Shown here: positions 27,247 to 49,491 of the stretch, one piece after another
Numbering within the stretch: the stretch's first letter is position 1
Layout of the letters: each line of letters begins with the position of its first letter
From: Halobellus rarus
Lineage (GTDB): Archaea; Halobacteriota; Halobacteria; Halobacteriales; Haloferacaceae
Direction of reading: 5' to 3'
Length of the DNA: 64,000 nucleotides
Assembly: GCF_024494595.1 (NCBI RefSeq)
Contig: NZ_JANHDI010000009.1
Coordinates: 1 to 64,000, forward strand
Made by a program: the position numbers and the translations under genes
Notes under the pieces: generated by a model
What the model was told of the DNA's origin: nothing
The model's database searches: none
Seen by the model: only the letters and a program-made list of their open reading frames with translations

Positions 27247-27420
27247 TCAGGTCTGGATCTGATAGAGAAGAACTAGGATGGCAACTCCGATGAAGAAGTC
27301 TGGGAGAAGCACGAACGTACCGATATTTGGGCGAGGTCGGAAGCCTAAGACGTTGTGTACTACTGGATTTGACGTACCCGCGTATAGAAGCAGCGCGGCG
27401 CTCGTCGTAGCCGGCGCTTA
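27247..27420 (-). pseudogene. C-terminal fragment of a membrane protein
   Basis: The minus strand encodes a coherent hydrophobic tail with PVVHNVLGFRPRPNIGTF and LLPDFFIGVAILVLLYQIQT before a stop at 27247-27249. An in-frame stop lies just before the fragment at about 27420. It starts next to the end of the truncated heavy-metal-binding gene, so both may mark an old deletion junction. The family is not recognised. Confidence 0.35.
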
Positions 27421-27432
27421 CACTCCCGGTCG

Positions 27433-27864
27433 TCAGTCGGGTTTCGTGTGCCTCGACTCCTGGACGCGGTCGAGCGCGGTTTCGGCCTTTCCGGTGCAGG
27501 GGCCGCAGTCCATTCCCGGACCCGAGAGACTGACTGTCGCCTCGTTTCGCCCCTCGACGCTGTAGCCCCCTTTCTCGATTCGGTCTTCGATAGCGTCTGC
27601 GGTCGTCGCGTCCGAGTTGTTAACGGTGAGCTGACCGCTCGCGACGCGCGAGTTCACGTTCCCGTCGAGTTTCGAGGCGCTTTGCTCGACCTTTCCCGCA
27701 CAGGCGGGACAGTCCATCTCCGGGACGTCGAACGCCGCGGCCGCACCCTCGCTGCCCGCGGACACCGCGCCCTTTCGTCCGCCGCCTTCGCCCTGCGAAT
27801 CCCGACGACCGACGTTCCGGCCGCCGCGCGCCGAATCTGGTATTACTAGATCGGTGGGGTCCAC
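27433..27864 (-). pseudogene. Truncated N-terminus of a heavy-metal P-type ATPase (two HMA domains)
   Basis: This 143-residue open frame carries one complete heavy-metal-associated domain (FDVPEMDCPACAGKVEQSAS, then DRIEKGGYSVE) and the start of a second (SLSGPGMDCGPCTGKAETAL). The CxxC pairs would bind Cu(I), Zn(II) or Cd(II). In haloarchaea two such domains head P1B-type ATPases. Here the coding sequence stops right after the second motif, with a tail (RVQESRHTKPD) unlike the family and no ATPase domain following. It is most likely a broken ATPase gene, although a small metal chaperone cannot be ruled out. It lies beside the nos genes. Confidence 0.6.
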
Positions 27865-28061
27865 GCCCTATTAAGTCATCTGCTATTTAACCCGATTAAA
27901 TCCACACAGATCATTAAAAATCCGATACAGATTAATACATCAGTACAGCGGCTTCGCATTTTATTTCGGTACCGCATCGATATCGGTGTCTCGGGTTCCG
28001 TCCGGCGGTCTTCGACGATCCTACCACATCGGCTTTCAGGGCAGCGACGCTACGCTCGTCT

Positions 28062-28703
28062 ATGTCTGATTCACACGACCACGACGGACTGACTCGCCGC
28101 CGCGCGCTTGGTGCGGGCGGGGCGGTACTCACACTCGCTCTTGCAGGTTGTAGCGGCACCGGCGACGGCGGGACGACGGAGACCGAGACGGCCACCCCGA
28201 CGCAGACGGAAACGGAGACACCGACCGCAGAACCGACGACGACCGAGGCCGGCAAAGCCTCGCGCAGACCGCTCGAAGTCCCCGAGGACGCAAACTGCGC
28301 GGTCTGCAATATGAAGCCCGCGAAGTTCCCGGACTACAACGCCCAACTCCAGTACGAGTCGTCCGACCCGAAATTCTTCTGCTCGAACGGCTGTATGGCG
28401 TCGTTTGCGGCCGATCAGGGGCACTTCGAGGAGGCGTACGCCGATGCGTCGATCACGGCGGCGTTCGTCCACGACCACGCCACGACCGACTGGATCGACG
28501 GTCTCGGGGCGTCTTACGTCCTGGAGATGGACTCCGAGCGGGTCGACGACCCGATGCGGATCAACCCGCTGGCGTTCGACACCGAAGCCAACGCGACGGC
28601 GTACGTCGAGCAGTACGACGACCTGACGGCCGATGACGTCGTCGGCTTCGACGCCTTCGATCGCGACCTCGCCGAGCAGTACCGCGCGAGCTTCTTCGAG
28701 TGA
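28062..28703 (+). CDS. nosL: NosL copper-chaperone lipoprotein
   Basis: This 213-residue protein has a Tat-type lipoprotein signal (LTRRRALGAGGAVLTLALAG followed by C), a Thr/Glu-rich linker and a NosL domain. The domain shows CAVCNMKPAKFPDYNAQL, FFCSNGCMASF and a C-terminal VGFDAFDRDLA. NosL delivers Cu(I) to nitrous oxide reductase, and the CxxCxM pattern is the likely copper site. It is the first gene of a tight nosL-nosD-nosF-nosY run; nosD starts four bases after its stop. No nosZ precedes it: upstream is the truncated HMA gene on the other strand. Confidence 0.92.
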   Translation: MSDSHDHDGLTRRRALGAGGAVLTLALAGCSGTGDGGTTETETATPTQTETETPTAEPTTTEAGKASRRPLEVPEDANCAVCNMKPAKFPDYNAQLQYESSDPKFFCSNGCMASFAADQGHFEEAYADASITAAFVHDHATTDWIDGLGASYVLEMDSERVDDPMRINPLAFDTEANATAYVEQYDDLTADDVVGFDAFDRDLAEQYRASFFE

Positions 28704-28707
28704 ACTG

Positions 28708-30639
28708 ATGCGTCGGGACGCCGCCCTCGCCGCCGTCGTGGTGCTCCTCGCGCTCGCGTACAGCGGCGCGTTCGTGGTGAACGCGACCCACGATCCCGAG
28801 CCCGTCTCGTTCGGCACCACAGCTAGCTCCGGTCTGACCGCGGAGACGGTCCGTGAGACACAGGCTGCGGGGGCTGTCGTCCCGAAAGCGCAGGTTTCCT
28901 ACGCCCAGTTCGAGACGGTCGTCGGCTACTACGGCATCGGATCGCTGGTCGCCGCGCTCGGTCGCGAGGGTCACACACAGCGGTTCGGTCCACCGCTCGG
29001 CGTCTTCGTCAGCGACTTCGCCGGGACGTCGCCGACAGCGAGTGACGCAGGGTATCCGGTCCCCACCGCGGGCCGTCCGGGGTGGACCGCGGCCGCCAAC
29101 GCACACTACGTGGTCGTCCCTGGGCGCCCCACTGCAGCCGGTAAGGCGCGTGGGCGCGTCTTCGTTCCGTTCAGCGTCGCGGCTGACGCCCGGCAATTCG
29201 CCGACCGCGTCGGCTCCGACGCGACAGTCTGGTCGTGGGCGACTGTCCGCGAACGGATCGACGGTCCGCCTCGAACCCGGTCGTGGCCTGAGACCGTTGA
29301 ATCACGGAATCAGGCGGCGAACCGAACGGCTACAGACGCCCGGTCGCTCGCAGACCGCCCTGTTTCGCAGGTCGTCGGGGACGACGCACCCAGCATTCAG
29401 CGCGCCGTCGACACCGCGCCACCGAATACGACCGTCTACGTCCCGCCCGGAACGTACCACGAACGCGTTCGGATCGACCGTCCGATAACGCTCCGCGGGG
29501 CGGGCACAGAGACCGTTGTCTCGGCCAGGTCGAACGGGACCGGCGTTACGGTGACGAGCGACCGCGTCGCCGTCGTCGACCTCGCGGTGACGGATGTCGG
29601 GACGGAGACTATCGAGGTCGGTAACGGGAGCGAGGCGTGGGACACACACGTCAAGCAGACGTACGGCCGCGGCGACGCGGGCGTCGCGCTCGTGAACACC
29701 TCCCGAACCCTGGTCGCCGACGTCACGGTGCGGACACCGTCCAACGGCGTCCTGCTCCGGCAGACGAACGAGACGCTCGTCGAGAACGTGACCGTTCACG
29801 GGACTGCGACCGGTGGCGAAGGCTATATGGGCGTGATGGCGATGGAAGCGACGTCGGCGGTCGTGCAGTACTCGACGTTCAGCGGGACGCTCGACGGCGT
29901 CTATTCCCACCGGTCGAACGGCCTCGTCGTCCGCGACAGCCGAATGCGGGACGTCCGCTTTGGGACGCACCTGATGTTCACCTCAGAGACGTTGCTCGCG
30001 GACAACGTCGCCCGCGACACCGATACCGGTCTCGTCGTGATGACCCGACCCTCGGGGAACGCGCTCGTCGGCAACGACGTTCGCGACTCGGGCCGGGGGA
30101 TCGTCACGGCCGGCAGCGACTCCTACGTCGCGCGAAACCGACTCGTCGGTAACGAGGTCGGCCTGGAGATCGGAACGCGGCGCTCGCTGTACGGACACAA
30201 CGTTCTCCTGCGGAACGGCGTCGGGGCCGACGCGACCGCGATCGTCGCCTCCAACCGTGTCCTCGCCAACGACTTCGTGCACAACGACCGGCCCGCGGAA
30301 GCAACCGGTGGCGCGACGCGCGTCTGGTCGAGCGCCACGGGCGGGAACTACTGGGCGCGGGCGGCGGGCGGCCCAGTCGACGCCGTCGATCGCTCGTATC
30401 GCCCGACGAGCGCCGTCGACGCGCGATACGGAGCACCCGGAACCCGTCTCCTCTCGGAGTCGCCCGGTCTCGTTGCACTCCGCGAACTTCGCGGCACCGT
30501 TCCGGGGATGCGCAGCGGCGGTATCGTCGACCAGCGGCCGGCCGCCGCGCCCGTGAATCCCGACCTGCTGGCGGCCGCGCGAAATGACTCTCAACGTATG
30601 ACGAACGACTCACTCGTGAACACGAACTTCGATAGATGA
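28708..30639 (+). CDS. nosD: NosD copper-site maturation protein
   Basis: This protein of about 643 residues starts at the ATG at 28708, four bases after nosL, giving an N-terminal export helix (ALAAVVVLLALAYSGAFVV). The first part (about residues 20-200) is a NosL-like region found in haloarchaeal NosD proteins (YAQFETVVGYYGIGS, HYVVVPG). The rest is a right-handed beta-helix with CASH-type repeats beginning IQRAVDTAPPNTTVYVPPGT and including VYSHRSNGLVVRDSRMRDVR and FGTHLMFTSETLLADNV. NosD works outside the membrane with NosF and NosY in supplying sulfur or copper to the CuZ site of NosZ. The stop overlaps nosF by four bases. Confidence 0.9.
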   Translation: MRRDAALAAVVVLLALAYSGAFVVNATHDPEPVSFGTTASSGLTAETVRETQAAGAVVPKAQVSYAQFETVVGYYGIGSLVAALGREGHTQRFGPPLGVFVSDFAGTSPTASDAGYPVPTAGRPGWTAAANAHYVVVPGRPTAAGKARGRVFVPFSVAADARQFADRVGSDATVWSWATVRERIDGPPRTRSWPETVESRNQAANRTATDARSLADRPVSQVVGDDAPSIQRAVDTAPPNTTVYVPPGTYHERVRIDRPITLRGAGTETVVSARSNGTGVTVTSDRVAVVDLAVTDVGTETIEVGNGSEAWDTHVKQTYGRGDAGVALVNTSRTLVADVTVRTPSNGVLLRQTNETLVENVTVHGTATGGEGYMGVMAMEATSAVVQYSTFSGTLDGVYSHRSNGLVVRDSRMRDVRFGTHLMFTSETLLADNVARDTDTGLVVMTRPSGNALVGNDVRDSGRGIVTAGSDSYVARNRLVGNEVGLEIGTRRSLYGHNVLLRNGVGADATAIVASNRVLANDFVHNDRPAEATGGATRVWSSATGGNYWARAAGGPVDAVDRSYRPTSAVDARYGAPGTRLLSESPGLVALRELRGTVPGMRSGGIVDQRPAAAPVNPDLLAAARNDSQRMTNDSLVNTNFDR

Positions 30640-31382
30640 CGGACAATCCAGTCGTGACGGCCTCGAACGTCGCCTGCGAGTACGGTCCCGTCTCGGCACT
30701 CGCTGGCGTCTCCGCGTCGATCCACCCGGGATCGGTGACGGCAGTCGTCGGCCCGAACGGCGGCGGCAAGTCGACCTTCTTACGAACGCTTGCGGGCGTC
30801 GCGACCCCGACGAGCGGCACAGTCGCGTATCCGGTGACGGAGGGAACACACGCGGTCGGCTACCTCCCGCAGTCGTTTCGCCCCCGAGACGACCTGACGG
30901 TCGGCGAGACGGTCCGGTACTACGATGCGCTCGTCGGCGACGGGCCAACGCCCGAAGAGTTGCTCGATCGGGTCGGCTTGGCGCACGTCGCAGACCGGCG
31001 CGTCGGCGCGCTCTCCGGCGGTATGCTGCGCTTACTCGGTGTCGCGGTCGCGGGCGTCGGCGATCCCGACCTCGTCGTCCTCGACGAACCCACGAGCGGC
31101 CTCGATCGAACGATGACCAAACGGGTCTTCGAGAGTTGTGCGACGCTCGCCGGCGAGGACTGCGGCGTCGTCGTCGCCACGCACGACCTGCCGACGATAG
31201 AGCGCGTCGCCGACCGCGCGTTGCTCCTCGACCGCGGGCGGTTGCAGGCCGACCGACCACTCCCGATCGAGGGGACGGCGTTCGCGACGGCCTACGACGA
31301 CGCCGTCGACGGTGAGACGACCGTCCGGAGCGGTCGAGAGACCCGTGATCCCGGTCACACCTCCGATGGTGAGGCCGTATGA
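30636..31382 (+). CDS. nosF: NosF ABC transporter ATPase
   Basis: This 248-residue ATPase has Walker A (GPNGGGKST), the Q-loop (LPQSFRPRDDLTVGE), the signature LSGGML, Walker B (DLVVLDEPTSGLD) and the switch His in VVATHDLPTI. It overlaps nosD and nosY by ATGA junctions, showing a translationally coupled operon. NosF energises the NosDFY complex that matures the copper-sulfide site of nitrous oxide reductase. Confidence 0.9.
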   Translation: MTDNPVVTASNVACEYGPVSALAGVSASIHPGSVTAVVGPNGGGKSTFLRTLAGVATPTSGTVAYPVTEGTHAVGYLPQSFRPRDDLTVGETVRYYDALVGDGPTPEELLDRVGLAHVADRRVGALSGGMLRLLGVAVAGVGDPDLVVLDEPTSGLDRTMTKRVFESCATLAGEDCGVVVATHDLPTIERVADRALLLDRGRLQADRPLPIEGTAFATAYDDAVDGETTVRSGRETRDPGHTSDGEAV

Positions 31383-32218
31383 GCGTAGTCGGCTCGCTGC
31401 GCGAAATCGACCTCGATCGGGACCACGTCGCCGCCATCGCCCGTCGTGAAGTCAAGACGGTCACGCGAAACCGGGGCACGCTCGTCCTCTTCGTCGGCTT
31501 CTCGCTCCTCCTGCTCGGATTCACGTGGGCCGGCGGCGGCCACGCGTCCGGCTACGTCCCGACCGTCGTCGACCTCCTCACGCCGGTCGAACTGCTGGTC
31601 CCCGTCCTCGCCTTCGCGATCGGCTATCGCGTGTTCGTTTCGGATCGGGAACGTGGCGAACTGGCGGTTCACGCCACGCTCCCACCGTCGCGGTCGTCGA
31701 TCGTCCTGGGGACGTTCCTCGGCCGCGGCGTGATCCTCGCGCTCGGTGTCGCGGCCGCAGCGCTCCCCGCGCTCGCCTTCGTCGTTCTCTCGGGCGACGG
31801 CACGTCGCCGATCTACGCCGCACAGCGCGGTGCGGACTCGCCGCTGTTGTTCGCTCGGTTCGTTGCCGTCGCGACGCTGCTTGGCCTCGCCGCGCTGGCC
31901 GGTGCGCTCGCCGTCTCTGCAGTCGCTCGCAGCGCCAAGAGCGCCGTCGGCCTGGCGCTCGGTCTCTGGGCGGTCCAAACAGTCGGGGCCGACGTCGGAT
32001 CACTCGCAGCCCTACAGCGGGGGTTTCTCGGCGTTGGCAGCCTGCCGACTGCCGTCGCGCTCGGTCCTGGCGGCGCGTATCGAGGACTCGTCTTCGCGAC
32101 CGTCCTCGACGCGGCGACGGTCGAGGCGACCGCCGCGGTCGCACCGGCCGTCGGAGTGCTCTCACTCGTCGGCTGGACCGTCTTTGCTCTCGCTGTCGCC
32201 GCCTACGCACTCCGGTGA
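31379..32218 (+). CDS. nosY: NosY ABC transporter permease
   Basis: This 279-residue membrane protein has about six hydrophobic helices and the amphipathic N-terminal helix (AIARREVKTVTRNRGTLVL) of NosY/ABC-2 permeases. FRVFVSDRERGELAVHATLPP-like sequence (YRVFVSDRERGELAVHATLP) follows the second helix and is typical of the family. It ends the nos operon. The next gene is on the other strand about 300 bases later, and no nosZ, nosR or cupredoxin gene follows. Confidence 0.9.
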   Translation: MSVVGSLREIDLDRDHVAAIARREVKTVTRNRGTLVLFVGFSLLLLGFTWAGGGHASGYVPTVVDLLTPVELLVPVLAFAIGYRVFVSDRERGELAVHATLPPSRSSIVLGTFLGRGVILALGVAAAALPALAFVVLSGDGTSPIYAAQRGADSPLLFARFVAVATLLGLAALAGALAVSAVARSAKSAVGLALGLWAVQTVGADVGSLAALQRGFLGVGSLPTAVALGPGGAYRGLVFATVLDAATVEATAAVAPAVGVLSLVGWTVFALAVAAYALR

Positions 32219-32305
32219 CTTTCCGACGCGGCCGTCACGGAACGCCTGTTACGGTGTTTTTCACGGCCTGATTATGAGGAACAACCACTAGAGCGAGTGT
32301 GCGTA

Positions 32306-32515
32306 TCAATCGCGGTTGCTCCTCAGTAGAAGTGCGACTCCTGTAACTGATACCGACATTCCAAGGAGGATTAGACCGAGATACGCGATAGCTATCGACC
32401 CGATATCCTGAATGGCTGAATGGTACTGGTTGGTCGTATGCAAGAACAGCAACAGGGTTCCTACGATACTGATGAGGAGTCCTACCGCGTTTGCCCACAG
32501 TCCCACCTTTGCCAT
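32306..32515 (-). CDS. Small two-helix membrane protein
   Basis: This open frame of about 69 residues from the ATG at 32515 has two hydrophobic segments, WANAVGLLISIVGTLLLF and AIAYLGLILLGMSVSVTGVA. An upstream in-frame start (32605) would add 30 residues that do not look conserved. No functional motif is visible. It may be a small haloarchaeal membrane protein. It is convergent with nosY, and the next gene on its own strand begins about 250 bases upstream of it. Confidence 0.5.
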   Translation of the reverse strand: MAKVGLWANAVGLLISIVGTLLLFLHTTNQYHSAIQDIGSIAIAYLGLILLGMSVSVTGVALLLRSNRD

Positions 32516-32768
32516 ACTATCTCCTCGTATTCTCCAGCCTACAGTGAGGATATATGATAAATTTACGCTTTTGTCTCGTGTCTGTGATCCGCTGTACGGT
32601 CTCATTCGACCTGTTGGCCAAACTCCCTGAGCTGAGCAGTTCTTGTACTGTGTACAATCTTTCTAGAATACTTTCTTACGAGGGGAAAATCAAGAGAGGA
32701 ATCCCAAATTGGAGTACGGTTTTCCGCCTGCTGACAATCGACTCGTGAGACCTGAGATCCTTCCGCGT

Positions 32769-33908
32769 TCACATCAGGGAGGATGTCAATTCACGGCTGA
32801 TCACAGCGAAGTGATCACTCATCGGCTGGTCGAGACGTCGGATGTGGACTTCCACAGGGAAGGTCGACCCATCACAGGAACGGTAGGTACTCTCCAGTTT
32901 CAGATCCTCATCGGGTTGCATCCCTCTCCAGATCTCCCTCGCTTCTTCGGGATCAAGTTCCTGATCGAGTTCCCAGACTTTCATATCGGCCAGTTCCGTG
33001 TCACTGTAGCCAGTCCGTTCACAAAACCGTGGGTTGGGACTGATAATATCCCCTTCTGAATTGTGTATATTTATCATATCAGGTGTCCCCTTGAAGAGCG
33101 CTTTCAGCCGAGCCGATGCCTGCTGTAGTTGTTTTTCACGCTCTTTTTCGGTCGTAATATCTTGGACAATCCCTAAAGCTGTCTCCGGTGTTCCGTTTTC
33201 GTCAAAGCCGACATCGGCTCGTTCCCGGACCCACCGAATCTCACCGTCGTCGGTTACGATGCGGTGCTCGATGTCGTACTCCTCTCCGTCGAGTGCGGCA
33301 CTCCAGGCCGCATCGACAGTCTCCCGATCGTCTGGATGGACATACTCCAGAAACTGCTCGTAGCTGAGCGAGCCCTCAGTGTCATCGATACCGAAGATCT
33401 CGTACACGGGGTCTGACCAGTATATCTCGTCAGCCGAGATATCCGTCTGCCAACTCCCGAGCTCGGCCACCACCTGTGCCTGGCGAAGGTGCGACTCTCG
33501 TTCTTCGAGTTCCCGTTGTGCACGGGTCCGCTCGACGTGAGTGATGATTCGTCTGCCCAGCAATTCGTACTGTTCAGTCCCCGTCTGTTTCTGGAGGTAG
33601 TCCGAGACCCCTGCGGAGATCGCCTGACTGGCGACTTCTTCCGATCCCTTCCCAGTAAAGAGAATAAACGGAAGAGTCGGATATTCCTCTCGGACCGCTT
33701 CGAGAAACTCGATGCCGTTCTTCCCCGGCATATCGTGATCAGACACGATGCAGTCTACAGAATCACTGTCGAGCCGTTCCATCCCTTCCGCTGGATTTCC
33801 GGCCGTTTCAACGCGAATGCGATCGTTGTTCTTCTCTAAAAAAGTCGCCGTCAATTCTGCAATCCCTTCGTTGTCTTCGATATGCAACACGTGAATCGGT
33901 GTACCCAT
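32769..33908 (-). CDS. Response regulator receiver - PAS - PAS protein without kinase domain
   Basis: This protein of about 379 residues starts at the ATG at 33908 (MGTPIHVLHIEDNEGIAE). The receiver domain has the acidic pair E11-D12, the phosphoacceptor Asp57 in CIVSDHDMPG and the Lys in LFTGKG. Two PAS domains follow (about residues 145-265 and 270-370), the first with a PAC-type DITTEKERE end. In haloarchaea this layout normally continues into a histidine kinase, but here the reading frame ends at VISRELTSSLM and no kinase sequence follows. It is either a truncated hybrid protein or a stand-alone output by PAS interactions. It lies next to cheW and a transducer. Confidence 0.85.
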   Translation of the reverse strand: MGTPIHVLHIEDNEGIAELTATFLEKNNDRIRVETAGNPAEGMERLDSDSVDCIVSDHDMPGKNGIEFLEAVREEYPTLPFILFTGKGSEEVASQAISAGVSDYLQKQTGTEQYELLGRRIITHVERTRAQRELEERESHLRQAQVVAELGSWQTDISADEIYWSDPVYEIFGIDDTEGSLSYEQFLEYVHPDDRETVDAAWSAALDGEEYDIEHRIVTDDGEIRWVRERADVGFDENGTPETALGIVQDITTEKEREKQLQQASARLKALFKGTPDMINIHNSEGDIISPNPRFCERTGYSDTELADMKVWELDQELDPEEAREIWRGMQPDEDLKLESTYRSCDGSTFPVEVHIRRLDQPMSDHFAVISRELTSSLM

Positions 33909-33967
33909 TATCGAATCAACTACCAATTACCAACATAATATTTATTATTATTATGTAACCCGGAGCG

Positions 33968-34420
33968 TTACCCTGGCAGTTCGTGCGGATCCAGCCACAG
34001 TGTGAAGCTATCGCCCTCTCTGATCAACCCTTGAAGTATCTCTGTCTCGCTAATAGCACCAGCTTCGAAGGTGTCTTCAGAGACTGCCATCACCTCTTGG
34101 ACGTCGGACACGAGCCATCCGGTTGTCGAATCTGCGTCGTCAGTCTCTGAGTCAAGTACTACAATGCGGTTCTGTTCAACCCCGCCGTCAGTGAGTAACT
34201 CCCCAGCATCAACTCCATCGGTGTCGAGCACTTTGCATAGGTTGATAATAGTCGTCGTACGCCCCCGGAGATCCATCACGCCCTCAACGTAGGGAGCGGA
34301 GTCGGGCACCGCCGTCATACTCTCCCCCTCGGCGATCTCGGCTACGTAATCGATATCGACACAGTAGTCCTCGTCGCCGAGCGTGAATGTGAGGACCTGA
34401 GTGTCAGCAATTCCGCTCAT
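33968..34420 (-). CDS. cheW: CheW-like coupling protein
   Basis: This 150-residue protein begins [20 protein letters not shown] and contains [18 protein letters not shown], the hallmark of CheW domains. CheW bridges transducers and the kinase CheA. The gene overlaps the transducer gene by four bases (its ATG overlaps the TGA), so both are co-translated. No cheA or cheY is present in the window, so the pair must act with a chemotaxis core encoded elsewhere or form an accessory signalling unit. Confidence 0.9.
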
Positions 34421-35373
34421 CGTCCGGTACTGACGTCGGTGTTAGTACTCCACTCTTCGCTAAACATATCGACGAGTTTGGCGATCTCGGTGACTTTTGC
34501 AGTCTGTTCTTGGTTGGCCGCAGCGAGTTCGTCGATCTCCGCGGCCACCATCTGCATCTGGTCGCTGGTCTCGTCGGTCATTGCTGCGACCTCTTCTGTG
34601 CTGGCGGCCTGTTCGTCTGTCGCGTCGGCGACTTCTTCGATACCGTCGTTGATTTCTCCGACAGCATCGCTGATCTCGTTTAGACTGTCGAGGGCGACGT
34701 TGACTTTCTGGAGCCCGTCATCGATGCGCTCGTTGGCGTCTTCAATGCTGTCGACAGTTTCGGTGGTGTTCGACTTGATCTGGGTGGCCATCTCTTCGAT
34801 GTCGACGGCTTGTTCTTGAGTGTCCTCGGCGAGAGATTTGATTTCATCGGCGACAACCGCAAAGCCGTCTCCGGCGTCGCCCGCTCGTGCAGCTTCGATC
34901 GATGCGTTGAGCGCCAGCAGGTTCGTCTGATCGGCGATATCCTGAATCACGGCGACGACATCGTCGATATCATCGACTCGGGCCCGCAAGGTCATAATGT
35001 CCTCTGCGACCTCGCCGGCAGCTTCGTTGACGGCATCCATCGCATCAATCGCATCATCAGCCGCCGACTTGCTCTCCTCGGAAAGCTCACGAGCTCTTCG
35101 GCTTTCAGTCCGGACTTGATCTGCGCTCGATGCAATCTCTTCGACAGTGGCGCTCAGATCGGACACTTCATTGGCGACCTCCGAGAGATTGCCGGCTTGT
35201 TCGGTAGCGACGCCGTTTATTTCGTCAGTACTCTCAGCAATCTGGCTGGCGGCGGACGCAAGTTCTTGCGTTGAACTCTGGAGTTCCTCAAGTCGGGAAC
35301 GCTCGATAACGACTTTCTCAGACTCTGTCTGTGCCTGCTCAGCCTCGCTCGGTTGTTGCGCTTCGGACGACAT
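34417..35373 (-). CDS. Soluble methyl-accepting transducer (signalling domain only)
   Basis: This protein of about 318 residues starts at the ATG at 35373 ([13 protein letters not shown]) rather than the in-frame TTG at 35388. It has no membrane segment, HAMP or sensor domain. It is a long coiled coil with the MCP hairpin tip [20 protein letters not shown] followed by [20 protein letters not shown]. Glu/Gln-rich heptads flank the tip and could be methylated. Such tip-only proteins in haloarchaea are cytosolic transducers or adaptors. It is the first gene of the cheW operon. Confidence 0.9.
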
Positions 35374-35599
35374 ATCTATCCGGGACAACGGAGTATTGTT
35401 AAACTCTGTCCAGCGATTTCAGAATATAATAACCGATTGATCTTTTCTAGATATACTTTATGGCCAAATCCATATTATCGATAGTTTACGTCGAAACAAT
35501 CTACTGGACGAACTCAATCCAAATCACAGCATATGCATTGAGACTGCCAGTCTCAACTTCTGTAGATCCTGCTGTTACGAAGATACTGTGATGTACAGG

Positions 35600-35720
35600 T
35601 TTCACGAGTGAACTACCCTCCCCTACTCGCTCACGGCTGACGCCGTTCGCTCCTTGAGGGTAGGGCTTCCTGTTTCCACGACGTGCTTTGCAGATACAGA
35701 CGTATCCACAGGAAGCGCAG
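35600..35720 (-). ncRNA. Candidate omega-RNA (TnpB guide RNA) at the right end
   Basis: In characterised IS200/IS605 elements the guide RNA of TnpB is made from the 3' end of tnpB through the right end of the element. Here the tnpB stop lies inside a stable hairpin (35613-35663, 8-bp outer stem, with an inner ACGGC/GCCGT stem). The scaffold would end near 35600 and the guide would come from the flanking DNA just below that coordinate. The boundaries are inferred, not seen. Confidence 0.35.
35613..35663 (-). repeat. Right-end hairpin of the IS200/IS605 element
   Basis: CTACCCTC (35613-35620) pairs perfectly with GAGGGTAG (35656-35663). On the element strand the loop reads AAGGAGCGAACGGCGTCAGC then CGTGAGCGAGTAGGG, containing an inner 5-bp stem. 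The tnpB stop codon falls within it. Confidence 0.7.
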
Positions 35721-36864
35721 TCTCCACAGGCGTTCCTTCGGAGCGTCCCACTCCTAGTTCTTCAAGACCGCGAGAACGGATATTCCACGCCGCGTTTGCA
35801 TCCCTGTCCGCCTCGAAACCGCAGGCAGGACAGGAATGTTCACGGACCCACAGCGGCTTCTCCGTCTTAACACTGCAGGACGCGCACTCCTTCGTCGTAT
35901 CTTTCGGGTCAACCGCGACGAAGTGCGTTCCTTCGCGCTTGCACTTGTATTCGAGCAACGAGAGGAACGTTCGCCACGCCGCCGACGCCGTGTTGCGGCT
36001 GTTCGACGGCGATTCGATCATCCCCTTCACGTTCAGGTCTTCGACCGCCACGAGGTCGTACACCCGCGCGTAGTAGTTCGAGAGTTTGTGCAAGAAGTCA
36101 CGGCGTTTCCGTCGGAGGTCCGCGTGACACTCCGCGACTCGACGCCGTTGTGTCTCGTAGTTGTTCGACCCGTGTTGCTTCCGTGAGAGGGACCGCTGTT
36201 CGCGTTCCAGTCGTTCGCGTTCGTCGGAGAGGTCGAGCGACCCGACTGCCGTACCGTCGGTGTCGTGAGCATACGTGAGAATCCCCACGTCGATACCGAC
36301 GCACTTCTCGGGATTTTCAGGTGGTTCGGGCGGTTCTCGGTCAATTTCGACGCCGAATGTGGCGAACCACTCGCCCGTTGGCTCCTTCTTGACCGTTACC
36401 TGCTTGAGTGTCGCGTCGTCGGGGATGGCGCGATGAAGCCGTATCGGTATGGTCGCAAGTTTCGAGAGTGACAGGACAGTCTGACCGCCCTTCTTGTCGA
36501 GCTTGAAGCCAGACTGACTGTAGGTGAAACTGCGGAACTCCCGTGGGGGCTTCCACTTGAGTTGCCCGACGCCGTAGCCGTTCTCCTTGAGTTTGGAGAG
36601 TCCGTTGAGGTTGTCGAACAGCCGTTCAACGACGGTTTGGAGGACTTTCGAGTACACGTCTGAGAGGCCGTTCCACCACTTCTTGAGGTCAGGAAGTTCC
36701 GACCGAAGCGTGGTCATAGACGGGAGTTCGCCGTGGTCGTCTTGGTACTCGTTGAGGCGGTAGAGCGTGTGATTGTACAGTTGCCGACAAATATCGCGGT
36801 GGCGGTCCAACTCCTCGCGGTGGGCGTCGGACGGCTTGAGACGGTACTTGTAGGCGTAGTACAT
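35623..36864 (-). CDS. tnpB: TnpB, RNA-guided endonuclease of the IS200/IS605 family
   Basis: This protein of about 413 residues starts at the ATG at 36864, where MYYAYKYRLKPSDAHREELD is the usual TnpB beginning; the upstream in-frame extension lies inside tnpA. The RuvC residues are all present: Asp in CVGIDVGILTY, Glu in VAVEDLNVKGM and Asp in FEADRDANAAWNI. The zinc ribbon CASCSVKTEKPLWVREHSCP followed by ACG is intact. The enzyme should therefore be able to cut DNA guided by an omega-RNA from its own 3' end. Its start shares one base with the tnpA stop. Confidence 0.92.
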   Translation of the reverse strand: MYYAYKYRLKPSDAHREELDRHRDICRQLYNHTLYRLNEYQDDHGELPSMTTLRSELPDLKKWWNGLSDVYSKVLQTVVERLFDNLNGLSKLKENGYGVGQLKWKPPREFRSFTYSQSGFKLDKKGGQTVLSLSKLATIPIRLHRAIPDDATLKQVTVKKEPTGEWFATFGVEIDREPPEPPENPEKCVGIDVGILTYAHDTDGTAVGSLDLSDERERLEREQRSLSRKQHGSNNYETQRRRVAECHADLRRKRRDFLHKLSNYYARVYDLVAVEDLNVKGMIESPSNSRNTASAAWRTFLSLLEYKCKREGTHFVAVDPKDTTKECASCSVKTEKPLWVREHSCPACGFEADRDANAAWNIRSRGLEELGVGRSEGTPVETALPVDTSVSAKHVVETGSPTLKERTASAVSE

Positions 36865-37280
36865 CAGCTCTCCCGCTGGTCTTCGACGTACTGTTTCAGC
36901 ACATCCAGCGATACCTGCCCCGTCGAGATGAGGCAGTACGAGTCGTTCCAGAACGAGTCGCCCCACAGTTCGGTCTTCAGTTCATCCTCGTACTCGTTAC
37001 GGATACGGCGGGCGGTCGCGCCCTTGACCGTATTGATGAACTTCACGAGGTCCGTGGTGGGTTTCGCTCGGAACAAGATGTGAACGTGGTCGTCCTCTCC
37101 ATCGAGGTTCGTCAGTTCGACGCCGTACTTGTCCGTGAACCCGCAGATGACCCCACGAATGAATTGGGTTCGCTCTTCGGTTAGCACTCCGCGCCGATAC
37201 TTCGTGGTGAGTATCAGGTGGTAGTGCAGGGAATACGTCGAATGCGCTCCGGAATCGAGGTCGTATTCCATTGGGTTCAT
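36864..37280 (-). CDS. tnpA: TnpA, Y1 HUH transposase
   Basis: This 138-residue IS200-type transposase has the HUH motif in GEDDHVHILFRAKP and the catalytic tyrosine in LDVLKQYVEDQ near the C-terminus. Other family features are YHLILTTKYRRGVLTEE and FINTVKGATARRIRNEY. A second Met at 37271 (MEYDLDSGAHS) is an alternative start. It precedes tnpB with an overlap of one base. All catalytic residues look intact, so the element may still be mobile. Confidence 0.92.
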   Translation of the reverse strand: MNPMEYDLDSGAHSTYSLHYHLILTTKYRRGVLTEERTQFIRGVICGFTDKYGVELTNLDGEDDHVHILFRAKPTTDLVKFINTVKGATARRIRNEYEDELKTELWGDSFWNDSYCLISTGQVSLDVLKQYVEDQRES

Positions 37281-37378
37281 ACTATTATATGGTACCCTAA
37301 TTCAAAAACGTTGTGACTACGTGGGCCTGTGGGTCTGCAACCGTCTCGCTATATGAACAGGCGATGATGGCGCTGTAT

Positions 37379-37422
37379 CCCCACCCCACTCCGCTCCCTT
37401 CGTCGCTCCGTTGAGGGTGGGG
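37379..37422 (-). repeat. Left-end hairpin of the IS200/IS605 element
   Basis: CCCCACCC (37379-37386) pairs with GGGTGGGG (37415-37422). The loop on the element strand contains AACGGAGCGACGAAGGGAGC, related to the right-end loop but with a different stem. It lies about 100 bases upstream of the tnpA start. Confidence 0.65.
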
Positions 37423-37643
37423 GCTTAGCGCCTATATCCAGCTAAAACAGACTGGAAGAACTTCCATATAGCTGTCAAGAATGCGCCCCTGCGAAACCTA
37501 TCGGATAGCGTTTAGAAACTGGCGGAGAAACCGCGCTCAGGACGGCGCAGCCGCTCCCGAGAAGGAAAGCTCCGACGTTCCATCCCTTTTTGTCACAGAT
37601 CAACATAGGTGTCTTCTGTCAGGTCTGCCCCGTTTCGAAAGAT

Positions 37644-37662
37644 CCGTGATACCGTATCACGG
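37644..37662. promoter_or_regulatory. 19-base palindrome upstream of sco1
   Basis: CCGTGATAC-C-GTATCACGG is a perfect 9-1-9 dyad ending 67 bases before the sco1 start. It has the size and symmetry of a dimeric regulator's operator. The spacer 37436-37729 contains no gene that I recognise. Confidence 0.45.
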
Positions 37663-37729
37663 CATCACGCCCCGGCATTCGAGGAACGTACCAGACGGCC
37701 TTTCTTCGGACAGTCCGTGGTAGCATCTA

Positions 37730-38410
37730 ATGCGACGACGCACGTTTCTTGCGACGGCGGGCGGGGCCGGCCTCGCTGCGACCGCTGGCTGTCTCGGCGG
37801 GGTTTCCAGCGTTCTCGGCGGCGGTGGGAACACCGTCCTCGGGAAGCCGGACGATCAGACCGTCCGCAGTGCGAACCTCCCGTATCCGGCCTACGGCCAG
37901 AAACTCCCCGACGTTACCCTCCCGGCGGCCACCACCGATCACAGCGTCTCGGTCGGCGGCCTCGACACCGCCGTCGTGATGACGTTCTTCTACAGCCACT
38001 GCAACACGGTCTGTCCGTTCCTCATCTCCTCGATGCGGAAAGTCCAGACGAACGCCATCGAAGCCGGCTACGGCGACGACGTCACGTTCCTCCCCGTCAC
38101 CTTCGATCCGAAGCGCGATGACGCGGCGCGGCTCGAAGAGTACGCCGAGATGATGAACGTCGACCTCGACGCCGGCAACTGGCACTTCCTCCGCCCCGAC
38201 GATCACGACCACGCCAAGGAGGTTGTCCAGGAAACCTACGGCGTCACCTTCGAGAAGACGAGCGAGACGGAGAGCAGTAAGTATATGTACAACCACCTCG
38301 GCCTCCTGCTCTTGGCGAACGCCAACGGCTACGTCGAACGGGCCTACACCGGCAACGACCCGGTGGGCGACCGCGTGTGGTCGGATCTGGAGACCGTCCT
38401 GCAAGCGTGA
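37730..38410 (+). CDS. SCO1/SenC-family copper-binding lipoprotein
   Basis: This 226-residue thioredoxin-fold protein has a Tat-type lipoprotein signal (MRRRTFLATAGGAGLAATAG followed by C). The copper-binding CxxxC is in YSHCNTVCPFL, and the distal His is in MYNHLGLLLLANANG. SCO proteins deliver copper to or reduce the CuA site of cytochrome oxidase and related CuA enzymes. The gene overlaps the SafE-like membrane gene by four bases. Nitrous oxide reductase also has a CuA site, so it may serve the nos system encoded at 28-32 kb. Confidence 0.9.
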   Translation: MRRRTFLATAGGAGLAATAGCLGGVSSVLGGGGNTVLGKPDDQTVRSANLPYPAYGQKLPDVTLPAATTDHSVSVGGLDTAVVMTFFYSHCNTVCPFLISSMRKVQTNAIEAGYGDDVTFLPVTFDPKRDDAARLEEYAEMMNVDLDAGNWHFLRPDDHDHAKEVVQETYGVTFEKTSETESSKYMYNHLGLLLLANANGYVERAYTGNDPVGDRVWSDLETVLQA

Positions 38411-39267
38411 TCGTCGACGCGCTCCTGCAGACCGGGGGCACGTGCGTCGCCCCGGGGGGTCAACCGCCGACGACGCGTACGGTCGAACTCGGTCTGTTCG
38501 TTCTCGTCGGCCTGTTCGGCACCGGCCACTGTCTCGGGATGTGCGGACCGCTCGTGTCGATGTACGCCGAACGGATGGACGACGGGGGACGCACTGGCGG
38601 CGCTGGGGAACCCACCCGCGGCCGCGACGACGACTTCCTCTCGCTGTACGCGGTCCGTCAGCACCTGCTGTTCAACGCGGGGCGCGTCACGATCTACACG
38701 ATCCTGGGCGCGGCGTTCGGACTGCTCGGGAGTCTACTGTTCGCGTCGGCCGCGACGACGGTGCCCTTCGGGGACGAAATCCGTGCGGTCGCTGGCGTCG
38801 CTGTCGGGCTCACCATCGTCGCCGCGGGGGTCGGCTACCTCACCGGGAGTGGTACGGCGATCGTCGATCACCTCCCGCTCCTCGACCGACTGTTTCGACG
38901 GATTCACGCGTTCTTGTCCCCCCGCATCGACCGGTGGGTCGGCTCCGAACGCATCTTCGCGTTGGGATTCGTCCACGGCTTTCTCCCGTGTCCGCTGCTG
39001 TACCCGGCGTTCCTCTATTCGTTCAGCCAGGCCGACCCCGCCTTCGGCGCGGTTTCGCTCGCTGCACTCGGTCTCGGAACGTTCCCCGCGCTGTTCCTCT
39101 ACGGGACGCTGTTCCAGTCCATCGGCTCGCGTCGCCGACGCCTCGTCCACCGACTCTTGGGAGTCGTCTTCCTGCTCCTGGGCGCACACACGTTCTTCGC
39201 GGGATTACGTCTGTTCGGCGTCGCAGTCCCGCACCTGTTCAGTTTGCCGCACTATCAACCGTTGTAG
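38407..39267 (+). CDS. SafE/UreH-like (DsbD_2) membrane protein, metal or redox transport
   Basis: This membrane protein of about 286 residues most likely starts at the GTG at 38407, overlapping the sco1 stop. It has about six helices and the family motifs GTGHCLGMCGPLVSMYAE near the N-terminus and FVHGFLPCPLLYPAF in the middle, with conserved His and Cys in the membrane. The family (sulfite exporter TauE/SafE, UreH-like) is linked to copper delivery for oxidases and to thiol transport. Coupled translation with SCO1 argues for copper-site assembly here. Confidence 0.8.
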   Translation: MIVDALLQTGGTCVAPGGQPPTTRTVELGLFVLVGLFGTGHCLGMCGPLVSMYAERMDDGGRTGGAGEPTRGRDDDFLSLYAVRQHLLFNAGRVTIYTILGAAFGLLGSLLFASAATTVPFGDEIRAVAGVAVGLTIVAAGVGYLTGSGTAIVDHLPLLDRLFRRIHAFLSPRIDRWVGSERIFALGFVHGFLPCPLLYPAFLYSFSQADPAFGAVSLAALGLGTFPALFLYGTLFQSIGSRRRRLVHRLLGVVFLLLGAHTFFAGLRLFGVAVPHLFSLPHYQPL

Positions 39268-39309
39268 CGGGTCGCGATCGCTCGCAGAGAAGTAACCGCC
39301 GCGCCGTGT

Positions 39310-39822
39310 TCACTCCCCGAAGATGTCGTCGAGGAGGACGACGAACCGATCGACCAGCCGATCGGGGAGCGACGGCTCGATCGCGACGAGCAGGTCCGCC
39401 GTCGCTTCGGGATCGACGACCGAGAGTGTCACGCGGTTGTTTCGGCCGTACTCCTTCGCGACGATTTCCTGCTCGGTGAGATGGTCGACGTGGTGTTCGA
39501 GCGTCGCCCTCGCGACGCCGACGGTTTCAGCTACCGCGTCGGGATGGGACGGCCCGCGTTCCAGCAGCGTGACGAGGATCTCCCGCGCCGTTTCGCGCCG
39601 GAGCAGCGCGAGCGCACTCTGTTCCCATTCGTCGTACGTCGGCGGGTAGTAGTGCGTCCGGCCGTACAGTTGCTTCTGCACGAGCGTATCTCGTTTCAGC
39701 AATTTCCGGACGTGATACTGGACCTGTCCCGCTGCGAGGTCGAGTTCACGGCTGAGTTCGCTGAAGTGGGTCCCCGGATGATCCGTAACGTAGCGTTCGA
39801 TTCGCTGGCGTTGGTGTTGCAT
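39310..39822 (-). CDS. Two-winged-helix transcriptional regulator
   Basis: This 170-residue cytosolic regulator has two winged-helix domains. The first (residues 5-70) reads ERYVTDHPGTHFSELSRELD and LAAGQVQYHVRKLLKRDTLV. The second (about 75-140) reads ETAREILVTLLERGPSHPDA and VARATLEHHVDHLTEQEIV. This double-HTH layout is common in haloarchaea and often lacks a ligand domain. It is convergent with the sco1-safE pair, and the palindrome at 37644 might be its site, which is only a suggestion. Confidence 0.8.
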   Translation of the reverse strand: MQHQRQRIERYVTDHPGTHFSELSRELDLAAGQVQYHVRKLLKRDTLVQKQLYGRTHYYPPTYDEWEQSALALLRRETAREILVTLLERGPSHPDAVAETVGVARATLEHHVDHLTEQEIVAKEYGRNNRVTLSVVDPEATADLLVAIEPSLPDRLVDRFVVLLDDIFGE

Positions 39823-39939
39823 GGGTAGTGAGTCGAGATGGCTGTCAGCGGATACCGGTTACTGGACATCGAAGCTACCGAATCGACGTACAAAACGCAG
39901 TCGCCGAATCTCACTCTCTGGGATTCGTCGGGCTCGCCC

Positions 39940-40278
39940 TCACCGCGTATTGTAGACGGCGTACAGCACGAGCGCGGAGACGAGAAAGTCGAGCGCGTGG
40001 CCGAGTAGGTGATGGATCGTCATCGGTACCAATCCGTACACTGTCGCGAGACCGATTCCCGTTCGTACGACGAGCGCACCGAGCGCCAGCGTGATTAACA
40101 GGTAGTGAAACTCTCGGCGGCGCGCGTAGGCGGCGACGCCCAGGGCGAACACCACGGCTGTGCCGATTCCGGCCAGGAGAATGCCCGCGAAGAGGAAGAC
40201 AGCGTACTGCCGGTCGACCCACTCTGCCGGCACGAGCGCGAGTGTCCGAATCGCCGACTCGGAAACGTCCAGGACCAC
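39940..40278 (-). CDS. Haloarchaeal four-helix membrane protein (unknown function)
   Basis: This 112-residue protein probably starts at GTG (40278). It has three to four hydrophobic segments: FLFAGILLAGIGTAVVFALG, YLLITLALGALVVRTGIGLA and HALDFLVSALVLYAVYNTR. Conserved-looking His residues (MTIHHLLGHALDF) could bind a metal or heme. Its place next to the regulator and copper genes and its length match small membrane proteins found beside copper/nos regulators in haloarchaea. The function is unknown. Confidence 0.6.
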   Translation of the reverse strand: MVLDVSESAIRTLALVPAEWVDRQYAVFLFAGILLAGIGTAVVFALGVAAYARRREFHYLLITLALGALVVRTGIGLATVYGLVPMTIHHLLGHALDFLVSALVLYAVYNTR

Positions 40279-40523
40279 GTTACAGAGTACAGAAAGCTCG
40301 GTCTAAACCGTTCTGGTTGAATCGGCGAGGCTACGGCCCGTGGTACGCTTCGCTTATACGCCCGACTCGATAGCGCCGTGACCGGTTCCATCGGCGACCG
40401 GTAGTGCCGTTTTCCGGTATCCTCCTTGGTACGCACTCCGCTCCAGTTAACGATGCCATTCCACGAGGCACGTCCCCTTCTGGGAGGCCCTGTGGGACCG
40501 TCTGAAGCCACAGGTACACACAT

Positions 40524-40930
40524 ATGGCTCACTCAAACAGCAACTCACTCGCGACTGGAATACACAGAAAACGTCGCTATTACGACTTTTTCGGCGGCCT
40601 GCCGGTAGCCGTCGGCGCGACGGTGGGCCTACATCGACCCAGTACCGCCAGATGTACGGCCAGTTCCTGACGACTCGCCGTCCCGTGACCCTGACCTCGT
40701 CATCGAAGAAGCATCGGGGGAGATCGACTCCGAGGCCGTCCTCGACGATCCGACGGATCACTACGGGTGGACCGGCGAGGGGTTCCGCGTCTACAACCGC
40801 GGTGACACCCGGGTTCGAGCCGTTCTACTCGATCTATCCGGTGGAGTTCGAGATCCGCCGGCGACGCCCGCCTCGCGATCGGTATCCTCCGAACAGCGGC
40901 CAGCAAGGCCGACCGCGCCAATAACTAAAT
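40524..40930 (+). pseudogene. Degraded unidentified coding region
   Basis: Pieces of protein-like sequence lie in several plus frames. From 40524 one frame starts MAHSNSNSLATG and contains RRYYDFFGGLPVAVGATVGL. At about 40640-40810 another frame gives DPDLVIEEASGEIDSEAVLD and YGWTGEGFRVYNRGDT. The next frame continues PGFEPFYSIYPVEFEIRR. The pieces join in order with frameshifts, as expected of a decaying gene. I do not recognise the family. The rest of 40279-41050 is non-coding as far as I can see. Confidence 0.35.
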
Positions 40931-43636: not shown

Positions 43637-43833
43637 CTACGACTCGACCAAGTCATAGTCGAACGTAACTGGTCGCTTTGAATAATCCCTGTGGTCGGTG
43701 CTTCGCCCGAGACGCGCCCCCGATTTGTCCCCAACCGACCCCGACCCAAACAGTATTGGTACCTGAATATGGGGTATCTCTCCGGTTTCGGGGCGGTTCA
43801 GAGTATATTGGTATCACCCTCTCCACGGGGGAC

Positions 43834-43849
43834 CACGTACGAATACGTG
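43834..43849. promoter_or_regulatory. Inverted repeat next to the molybdoenzyme operon start
   Basis: CACGTA-CGAA-TACGTG is a perfect 6-4-6 dyad ending one base before the ATG of the micro-ORF at 43851. A TATA-like GTATATTGG lies at 43803-43811, and a related TATTGGTACC occurs about 50 bases further upstream. A protein bound at the dyad would cover the transcription or translation start. Confidence 0.45.
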
Positions 43850-43850
43850 T

Positions 43851-43928
43851 ATGAACTCCAGAACTAACCGGCCGACGTGGGAGCAAGTGGTCGTCGACAA
43901 GACGATCGATGACGGGTGGTGGCGATGA
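43851..43928 (+). CDS. 25-residue leader micro-ORF of the molybdoenzyme operon
   Basis: An ATG-started frame encodes [20 protein letters not shown] followed by DGWWR and ends in TGA. Its stop overlaps the ATG at 43925 of the Fe-S subunit gene (ATGA). The same ATGA coupling is used by genuine neighbours in this operon. The Trp/Asp-rich peptide has no signal or membrane segment. It may be a real micro-protein, or a leader whose translation opens the next gene. No homologue is known to me. Confidence 0.45.
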
Positions 43929-44956: not shown

Positions 44957-44960
44957 ACCG

Positions 44961-49486: not shown

Positions 49487-49491
49487 TACGC

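Follow-up and report, generated by a model that had tools for sequence, protein, structure and literature searches.

A nosL-nosD-nosF-nosY cluster with an extended NosD in Halobellus rarus: possible copper delivery to a ba3-type cytochrome oxidase

The first 64,000 bases of contig C23 (226,699 bases) in the 3.66-Mb draft genome of Halobellus rarus (25 contigs, 97.13% complete), referred to here as the window, carry a run of four genes, nosL-nosD-nosF-nosY, at positions 28062-32218 of the plus strand. We lean slightly towards reading this cluster as an oxidase-type NosL-NosDFY system that delivers copper to the CuA site of a ba3-type cytochrome oxidase, and not as a maturation operon of nitrous oxide reductase (NosZ); the support for this reading is an association found by computation. 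All four genes are intact and coupled, as an earlier note made from the letters of this stretch had proposed: each has its Pfam match, the run is uninterrupted, and 4-base overlaps join NosD to NosF and NosF to NosY. For NosD, the mechanical open reading frame (ORF) begins at 28633 (668 amino acids), while a better start lies at 28708 (643 amino acids), 4 bases past the NosL stop. The parts of a NosDFY-NosL complex, namely a beta-helix NosD, an ATPase, a permease and a lipoprotein NosL, are all found within this one gene run. Among PDB sequences, NosY matches only the solved NosY 7o0y_D (E 2.4e-15) at a threshold of E<=1, and a phmmer search with the window NosL matched no NosL structure; this protein has a lipobox and a twin-arginine-like RRR, both read by eye. 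The closest named relatives of the window NosD are those of Halobellus inordinatus (91%) and Halobellus sp. Atlit-31R (79-81%).

Search for nosZ and the extended NosD subtype

The earlier note had also remarked that nosZ is missing from the window, which is correct, and had left three options: that nosZ lies elsewhere in the genome, that it was lost, or that the machinery serves another copper or sulfur site. The first finds no support. PF18764 matched none of the control genomes and was replaced by TIGR04246, which detects no nosZ in this genome or in the 16 others of its genus (0/17), the lactonase-type clade III NosZ (NF052460) lying outside the genome-wide search. True nosZ genes yield E values below 1e-60 with this model, as opposed to three weak matches in the H. 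rarus genome (best E 2.5e-10, positions not located), whose short CoxB matches the CuA end of the model. Within the family, TIGR04246 detects nosZ in 35 of 148 genomes; the scores are 501-539 bits in 34, the remaining match is split into two pieces, and all stay below the curated cut-off of 625 bits. We also inspected named loci of the extended NosD subtype described below, i.e., the best 80 of 129 relatives, 79 of them distinct, each with flanks of up to 10 kb (15 loci are shorter than 21 kb). NosZ was found by BLAST with nosZ in none of the 79, and a CoxB query detected no CuA protein longer than 332 amino acids in the window or in these loci. That a nosZ, or a weakly scoring lactonase-type NosZ, is present in this genome and served by the cluster is barely credible to us: the incomplete draft, the three unlocated matches and a genome-wide search resting on TIGR04246 leave it some room, but the genus-wide negative and the missing long CuA protein speak against it, as does the finding that nosZ is adjoined by a short NosD of its own in 10/10 nosZ loci examined.

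In those ten loci, out of the 35, the haloarchaeal nosZ operon consists of nosZ, a gene for a protein of about 250 amino acids, then its own nosD and nosF, and a permease gene. Homologues of the window proteins are present there in 10/10 cases for NosD and NosF, in 7/10 for NosY (by BLAST), and in 5/10 for NosL. The nosZ-operon NosDs are 457-504 amino acids long, lack in all ten cases the NosL-like domain of the window protein, and align to its residues 30-199 over only 21-42 residues.

In the window NosD, the N-terminal helix and the beta-helix are separated by about 190 additional residues. The corresponding region matches Pfam NosL at E<=0.01 in 47/47 sequences, with the window's own domain, at 22.9 bits, falling just below the 24-bit cut-off. 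When modelled alone with AlphaFold2 (predicted local distance difference test score, pLDDT, 90.5), the domain finds NosL structures as its top folds (7og7, Z 11.9, root-mean-square deviation 2.9, 125 residues aligned), the next other fold family being MerB at Z 7; the domain fused to NosD is therefore predicted to have a NosL fold. The best folds for the whole NosD (pLDDT 85.5) are solved NosD structures, 7o0y_A (Z 41.7) and 7osf_A (Z 41.4). Judged by its motifs, the fused domain is NosL-like and not a copper chaperone, because none of 85 NosDs has a CxxC or a CxM, and hence a CxxCxM, in the first 230 amino acids; the window NosD is devoid of cysteine, and 45 N-terminal regions hold ten cysteines altogether. 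Such a fusion has a precedent, as a Haloferax mediterranei protein has been annotated with NosL plus NosD domains (PMC9240420; this and the other papers cited by PMC identifier are drawn on in part).

We placed the window protein in a tree of 55 NosDs, 45 of them extended and 10 linked to nosZ (structure alignments comprised 47 rows). The nosZ-linked NosDs form one branch with support 100/100, and apart from it lies a window-type clade of seven members (100/97) from three families: three Halobellus-type sequences, Haloferax profundi, Halorussus litoreus and two Halorientalis. The other 38 extended NosDs have no support as one group (33/0). The H. rarus genome also carries the commoner NosD type, on contig C16 with NosL adjoining; the window copy represents another version of the extended NosD, one with a scattered distribution. 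This version is found in five family genomes (G000, G068, G122, G127 and G065), and some genomes hold two or three copies.

These data bear on the second option, loss of nosZ. A simple loss is unlikely, because the NosD sits on a separate, well supported branch and NosZ occurs in none of the 79 loci; neither a nosZ in the operon or, by TIGR04246, in the genome nor a NosD that groups with the nosZ-linked ones, as expected of a nosZ maturation operon, is seen here. That the cluster is a relic of such an operon, retained by chance, we regard as very improbable: the missing nosZ, a truncated CopA-type neighbour and a 5.26-kb insertion in the locus would suit a decaying relic, but all four genes are intact, and the position of NosD outside the nosZ-linked branch and the absence of NosZ from the named loci argue against it as well.

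The two kinds of NosD also differ at individual residues of the beta-helix region. Histidine 401 is present in 45/45 extended NosDs and replaced by serine in 10/10 nosZ-linked ones; methionine 374 is present in 43/45, versus asparagine in 10/10; and position 379 is methionine in 31/45, versus phenylalanine or tryptophan in 10/10. All 55 sequences share H421, M423 and M445. Positions 401, 423 and 445 are 22 residues apart and, in the model, coincide with strand ends, one strand after the next. In the solved bacterial NosD 7o0y, the residues corresponding to H401 and M374 of the window subtype are D and N, and H421, M423 and M445 are shared. These histidines and methionines may line a Cu(I) track that both kinds of NosD have in common and that reaches further in the extended subtype.

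Co-occurrence and gene neighbourhoods

Narrowing the third option, another copper or sulfur site, depends on what the extended NosD travels with. Another site remains the part of the earlier proposal that stands, and the CuA oxidase is its best candidate by co-occurrence and neighbours. Extended NosD is present in 97 of the 148 family genomes; 99 genomes had a NosD match, of which G020 and G022 (E ~1e-35 to 1e-37) were left uncounted, their match being the short nosZ-linked NosD. Matches to ba3-type CoxB are bimodal (E 1e-48 or better, versus 5e-16 or worse), with 100/148 genomes positive. The ba3 label reflects PDB matches: the H. rarus subunit I (CoxA, on contig C4) matches ba3 chains at E ~1e-120, with 1ehk_A (E 3.6e-120) among the top ones, as opposed to ~5e-12 or worse for the mitochondrial-type subunit I, and the best matches of the CoxB query include 1ehk_B.

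Both extended NosD and ba3 CoxB occur in 88 family genomes, NosD only in 9, CoxB only in 12, and neither in 39 (p 1e-16). The tie persists under shuffling within genera, where 88 genomes with both compare with 79.8 expected and 0/20,000 permutations reach as high, while nosZ and extended NosD occur together no more often than by chance (29 versus 29.4 expected; 15,782/20,000 as high). In the window's genus, the oxidase is found in 9/11 NosD-positive and 0/6 NosD-negative genomes, and all five family genomes with a window-type copy have it. Among 166 genomes outside the family the counts are 59 both, 20 NosD only, 17 CoxB only and 70 neither (p 6e-13, not stratified by genus); this order-level table excludes 29 family genomes, and its distance list drew on part of the coordinates.

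The copper nitrite reductase NirK is another conceivable recipient, and has been proposed as such for a Parageobacillus nosLDFY without nosZ (PMC13068155). The H. rarus genome has nirK at C20:150623, and nirK is present in 6 of the 9 family genomes with extended NosD and no ba3 CoxB. However, the association is weak, with 55 genomes holding both, 42 NosD only, 19 nirK only and 32 neither, and within genera 55 versus 51.4 expected, an excess equalled in 1,181/20,000 permutations; moreover, G068 and G122, which have the window-type copy and belong to the same genus, give no nirK match at E<=1e-60. NirK as the main recipient is not favoured, and we think it improbable.

Among the genes around the extended NosD, across the 79 named loci (28 'genera' by the first word of the title, three of which are non-genus words) we find NosL in 59, SCO1 in 31, DsbD_2 in 30, a winged-helix protein in 30, DUF7471 in 29, CopA in 10, TlpA-like and CcdA-like proteins in 9 each, COX1 of any type in 9, ba3-type CoxB in 5, and NosZ in 0. 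The COX1 label mixes ba3-type and aa3-type subunits I, the one in L106 being CtaD-like. The 217-amino-acid 'CcdA-like' protein matches no Pfam or NCBIfam family; we take it to be such from a motif of the SPC...PLLPGYVGYY type, read by eye. At least one of SCO1, CcdA-like, TlpA-like, CoxB, CopA or DsbD_2 is present in 41/79 loci. SCO1, at ~0.78 copies per genome (31 in 40), would be expected by chance in 0.36 of the 79 loci, assuming a 20-kb flank and 3.4-Mb genomes, versus 31 observed. In 10 family genomes NosD lies 6-24 kb from CoxB.

The same neighbourhoods can be read as general envelope copper handling, i.e., export, buffering or stress relief for any extracellular cuproprotein, in which case the tie to the oxidase would reflect the general copper economy. 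CopA adjoins the cluster in some loci and in the Halobellus relatives, the local winged-helix protein is common, two or three copies coexist in some genomes, and 9 genomes have extended NosD and no ba3 CoxB. We nonetheless consider this unlikely, if still deserving of attention, as the within-genus tie to the CuA oxidase is much stronger than that to nirK or nosZ, and SCO1, TlpA-like and CcdA-like neighbours would suit CuA assembly better than detoxification.

A Cu(I) motif (CxxCxM or CxM) is present in 56 of the 67 called NosL proteins from the window and the named loci, the window NosL included; CxxCxM is reported for clade II NosL (PMC6530538). Some related NosL proteins have unusual architectures. 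Tandem NosLs of 362-379 amino acids, with two CxxCxM motifs each, adjoin window-clade NosDFY in L084 (from 14267), L085 (from 14191) and L118 (from 8679), Pfam NosL having matched in L084 and L118. In Halorubellus salinus (L139, 6073-7005) a HiPIP-type iron-sulfur domain is followed by a fused NosL (Pfam HIPIP E 1e-6, NosL E 1.3e-12), and the same fusion is recognized, by eye only, in Salinibaculum (L090, from 4851), as if copper delivery were coupled to electron transfer. DUF7471, a frequent neighbour of NosD, may act in copper or oxidase assembly. The common NosD copy is often flanked by genes for pyruvate/2-oxoacid:ferredoxin oxidoreductase and acetyl-CoA synthetase, as in Haloferax (L096, L097, L106 and L117), Halobellus clavatus (L130) and the H. 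rarus copy on C16 (L041), for which we see no functional reason.

A possible route of copper to CuA

On the reading of copper delivery to CuA, for which we infer the substrate, the recipient and the order of steps, NosL, a membrane-anchored Cu(I) lipoprotein, would dock to NosD and pass its copper on, with the fused NosL-like domain, which has no copper motif, probably acting as a module for docking or gating. NosFY would hydrolyse ATP to drive the NosD cycle and release. SCO1, encoded beside the cluster here, would keep the CoxB cysteines reduced, possibly together with TlpA-like and CcdA-like proteins in other genomes, and copper would reach the two-copper CuA site in subunit II of the ba3-type oxidase. 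In bacteria, TlpA and Sco act on CuA (PMC6696091, PMC7558416), and PCuAC is the copper donor for CuA in Thermus (PMC6696091). PCuAC was found in 0/148 family genomes, as opposed to three positive control genomes, and the cluster would stand in for it in these archaea.

Comparison with the CuA assembly route of Bradyrhizobium and Thermus (TlpA, Sco and PCuAC; PMC6696091, PMC7558416, PMC9145763) shows shared elements, with SCO1 beside the window cluster and TlpA-like and CcdA-like proteins in related loci, and two differences, the failure to find PCuAC in the 148 family genomes and the ATP-binding cassette (ABC) transporter complex, which forms no part of the route in the available text of those papers. 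Bacterial NosDFY-NosL (PDB 7o0y, 7osf, 7znq; NosL 7og7, 2hpu) has the same four proteins, the same NosD fold and the NosL CxxCxM; it differs from the haloarchaeal cluster in that here no nosZ is found, a NosL-like domain is fused to NosD, and the neighbours are of the SCO1 oxidase assembly type.

Several observations weigh against delivery to CuA. The co-occurrence expected of a CuA oxidase assembly factor has exceptions: 9/97 NosD-positive family genomes are without ba3 CoxB, and 12/100 oxidase-bearing ones are without extended NosD; outside the family, in the unstratified table, 20/79 NosD-positive genomes are without ba3 CoxB, and family f12 is patternless (3 both, 6 and 6 with one alone). 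A non-copper control gene is missing, as the narG model TIGR01580 matched 0/148 genomes and is probably far from haloarchaeal narG. None of the listed copper and redox neighbours is seen in 38/79 loci, and 11/67 called NosL proteins have no copper motif, some of these being short calls. The ba3 genes of H. rarus lie on C4, beside other CopA-like and DsbD_2-like genes and not beside either NosD copy. The six other named loci of the window clade show no CoxB, and the five family genomes that hold the window-type copy all carry the common one as well. In Paracoccus, NosL matters for the CuZ site, and CuA is lost only under copper limitation (PMC6530538); NosD and NosFY have likewise been tied to CuZ (PMC7558416).

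The link to CuZ raises the possibility that what is exported is a sulfur species, destined for another copper-sulfide or cysteine-ligated site, in line with the proposal that NosDFY supplies sulfide for CuZ (PMC6530538). We judge this quite improbable. No CuZ protein is found in the genome by TIGR04246, CuA is described with bridging cysteines and not sulfide (PMC6530538), and the invariant H401, H421, M423 and M445 would suit Cu(I).

Clusters of this kind without nosZ have been described before. A nosLDFY set in Parageobacillus had its recipient guessed as NirK, as mentioned above, Bacillus azotoformans has nosD4-L4-Y4-F4 (PMC3475470), and Haloferax volcanii has nosFY (Zumft and Kroneck 2006, cited in PMC9240420); the same puzzle is thus already in print, and the portions of those papers available to us make no link to a CuA oxidase. 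Both the nosZ-less nosLDFY or nosFY and the NosL-NosD fusion are therefore known. A link of NosDFY, or of the extended subtype, to an oxidase was not found in the open-licence PMC literature, as far as its text was covered and with most subscription papers outside that scope.

The cargo of NosDFY, copper or sulfur, and the specificity of NosL are open questions in the field, usually studied with nitrous oxide reductase, an enzyme that holds both sulfide-containing and sulfide-free copper sites. A subtype that tracks a CuA oxidase where no CuZ enzyme has been detected would set the copper question apart from the sulfur question: if it loads CuA, copper suffices as a substrate. It would also give the haloarchaeal oxidases a candidate copper donor, PCuAC having been found in none of the 148 family genomes searched. 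More tentatively, and with somewhat less than even confidence, we suggest that NosL-NosDFY is at root an ATP-driven Cu(I)-loading complex, and not a CuZ/sulfide machine. It would exist in two or more subtypes, among them a NosZ-tuned one and an oxidase-type one, with the fused NosL-like domain and an extended ladder of methionine and histidine (379, 401, 423 and 445, one per beta-helix rung), that would load ba3 CuA and replace PCuAC in haloarchaea. For annotation purposes, finding nosL, nosD, nosF or nosY in an archaeal genome does not indicate nitrous oxide reduction.

Layout of the locus, its insertion and base composition

The features of the locus are listed in Table 1.

Table 1. Features of the nosLDFY locus in the window
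Feature	Position	Strand	Basis and remarks
CopA-type copper P-type ATPase remnant	27398-27864 (ORF 27433-27864)	-	Heavy-metal-associated domain only; Pfam HMA, E 1.7e-11
NosL	28062-28703	+	Lipoprotein copper chaperone; Pfam NosL, E 1.2e-12; CAVCNM = CxxCxM motif
NosD, extended subtype	28708-30639	+	Pfam NosD, E 3.2e-27; signal/anchor helix, NosL-like domain, beta-helix
NosL-like domain at NosD N-terminus (predicted)	28795-29355	+	No CxxC, no CxM
NosF, ABC transporter ATPase	30636-31382	+	Pfam ABC_tran, E 3.4e-24
NosY permease	31379-32218	+	Pfam ABC2_membrane_2, E 6e-15
Insertion, 5.26 kb, GC 0.545	32303-37564		Parts NosY from SCO1; comparison with relatives
SCO1/SenC copper chaperone and thiol reductase	37730-38410	+	Pfam SCO1-SenC, E 1.3e-17; CxxxC (HCNTVCP) and lipobox, both by eye
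DsbD_2/UreH-like polytopic membrane protein	38377-39267 (called start 38407)	+	Pfam DsbD_2, E 7.8e-47
HVO_0163-type winged-helix protein, candidate local regulator	39310-39822	-	Pfam HTH_HVO_0163_N, E 3e-34
DUF7471 protein	39940-40278	-	Pfam DUF7471, E 4e-31

The earlier note was right that a broken metal ATPase gene lies upstream of the cluster: only residues 3-141 of a relative's 865-amino-acid CopA-type protein remain, 71% identical, and DNA homology to the relatives ends at 27398. Two Halobellus relatives have a CopA-type ATPase of 862 and 865 amino acids at the same place. The CopA-nosL intergenic region was aligned across three Halobellus-type sequences, and an operator was not established.

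In Halobellus sp. Atlit-31R (L081), nosY is followed directly by SCO1 and the DsbD_2/UreH-like gene, with the winged-helix and DUF7471 genes on the opposite strand, and H. inordinatus (L082) has the same order with a 170-amino-acid ORF between NosY and SCO1. In H. rarus, the block from SCO1 to DUF7471 is found at 37730-40278, away from NosY, because the 5.26-kb insertion entered between them. The insertion is absent from both relatives, L082 having a different 0.86-kb stretch at this place, and on either side of it the DNA matches that of H. inordinatus at 91% identity (27398-32302) and 90% (37565-40867). The insertion contains a response regulator/PAS protein (by Pfam), chemotaxis-like genes (by eye) and an IS200/IS605 transposase pair, and a repeat scan around it gave nothing clear. 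The transposase pair spans 35623-37280, with TnpB assigned by Pfam and TnpA (36864-37280) by NCBIfam IS200 (E 2e-39).

The cluster was noted earlier to be richer in G+C (GC) than its neighbours, and a separate origin was suggested. The first part holds, as GC is 0.676 over 27398-32302 and 0.544 over 1-27397. The second seems not to: stretches on three other contigs have similar GC (C16 0.646, C4 0.684, C11 0.669), and foreign origin of the cluster by its high GC was rejected on these grounds. Because those stretches share the cluster's GC, it is the flanks, and with them the surrounding contig (0.579 and 0.597 in two more stretches of C23), that seem unlike the rest of the genome; the comparison consists of five stretches and not a genome-wide mean, the three high-GC ones having been chosen for their copper genes and not at random. 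The window copy may nonetheless plausibly have moved laterally, given that members of its clade occur scattered in three families.

Further along the window, a run of genes resembling a tetrathionate/thiosulfate-reductase molybdoenzyme occupies 41741-51305 (GC 0.654 over 43925-51305) and comprises an Fe-S subunit, an NrfD-like subunit, a 1085-amino-acid catalytic subunit, a TorD-like chaperone and an Mrp/ApbC-like protein, with a BAT/HTH_10 regulator upstream on the other strand. Beyond the window, at ~87,000-97,500 of contig C23, three P-type ATPase-like genes lie close together.

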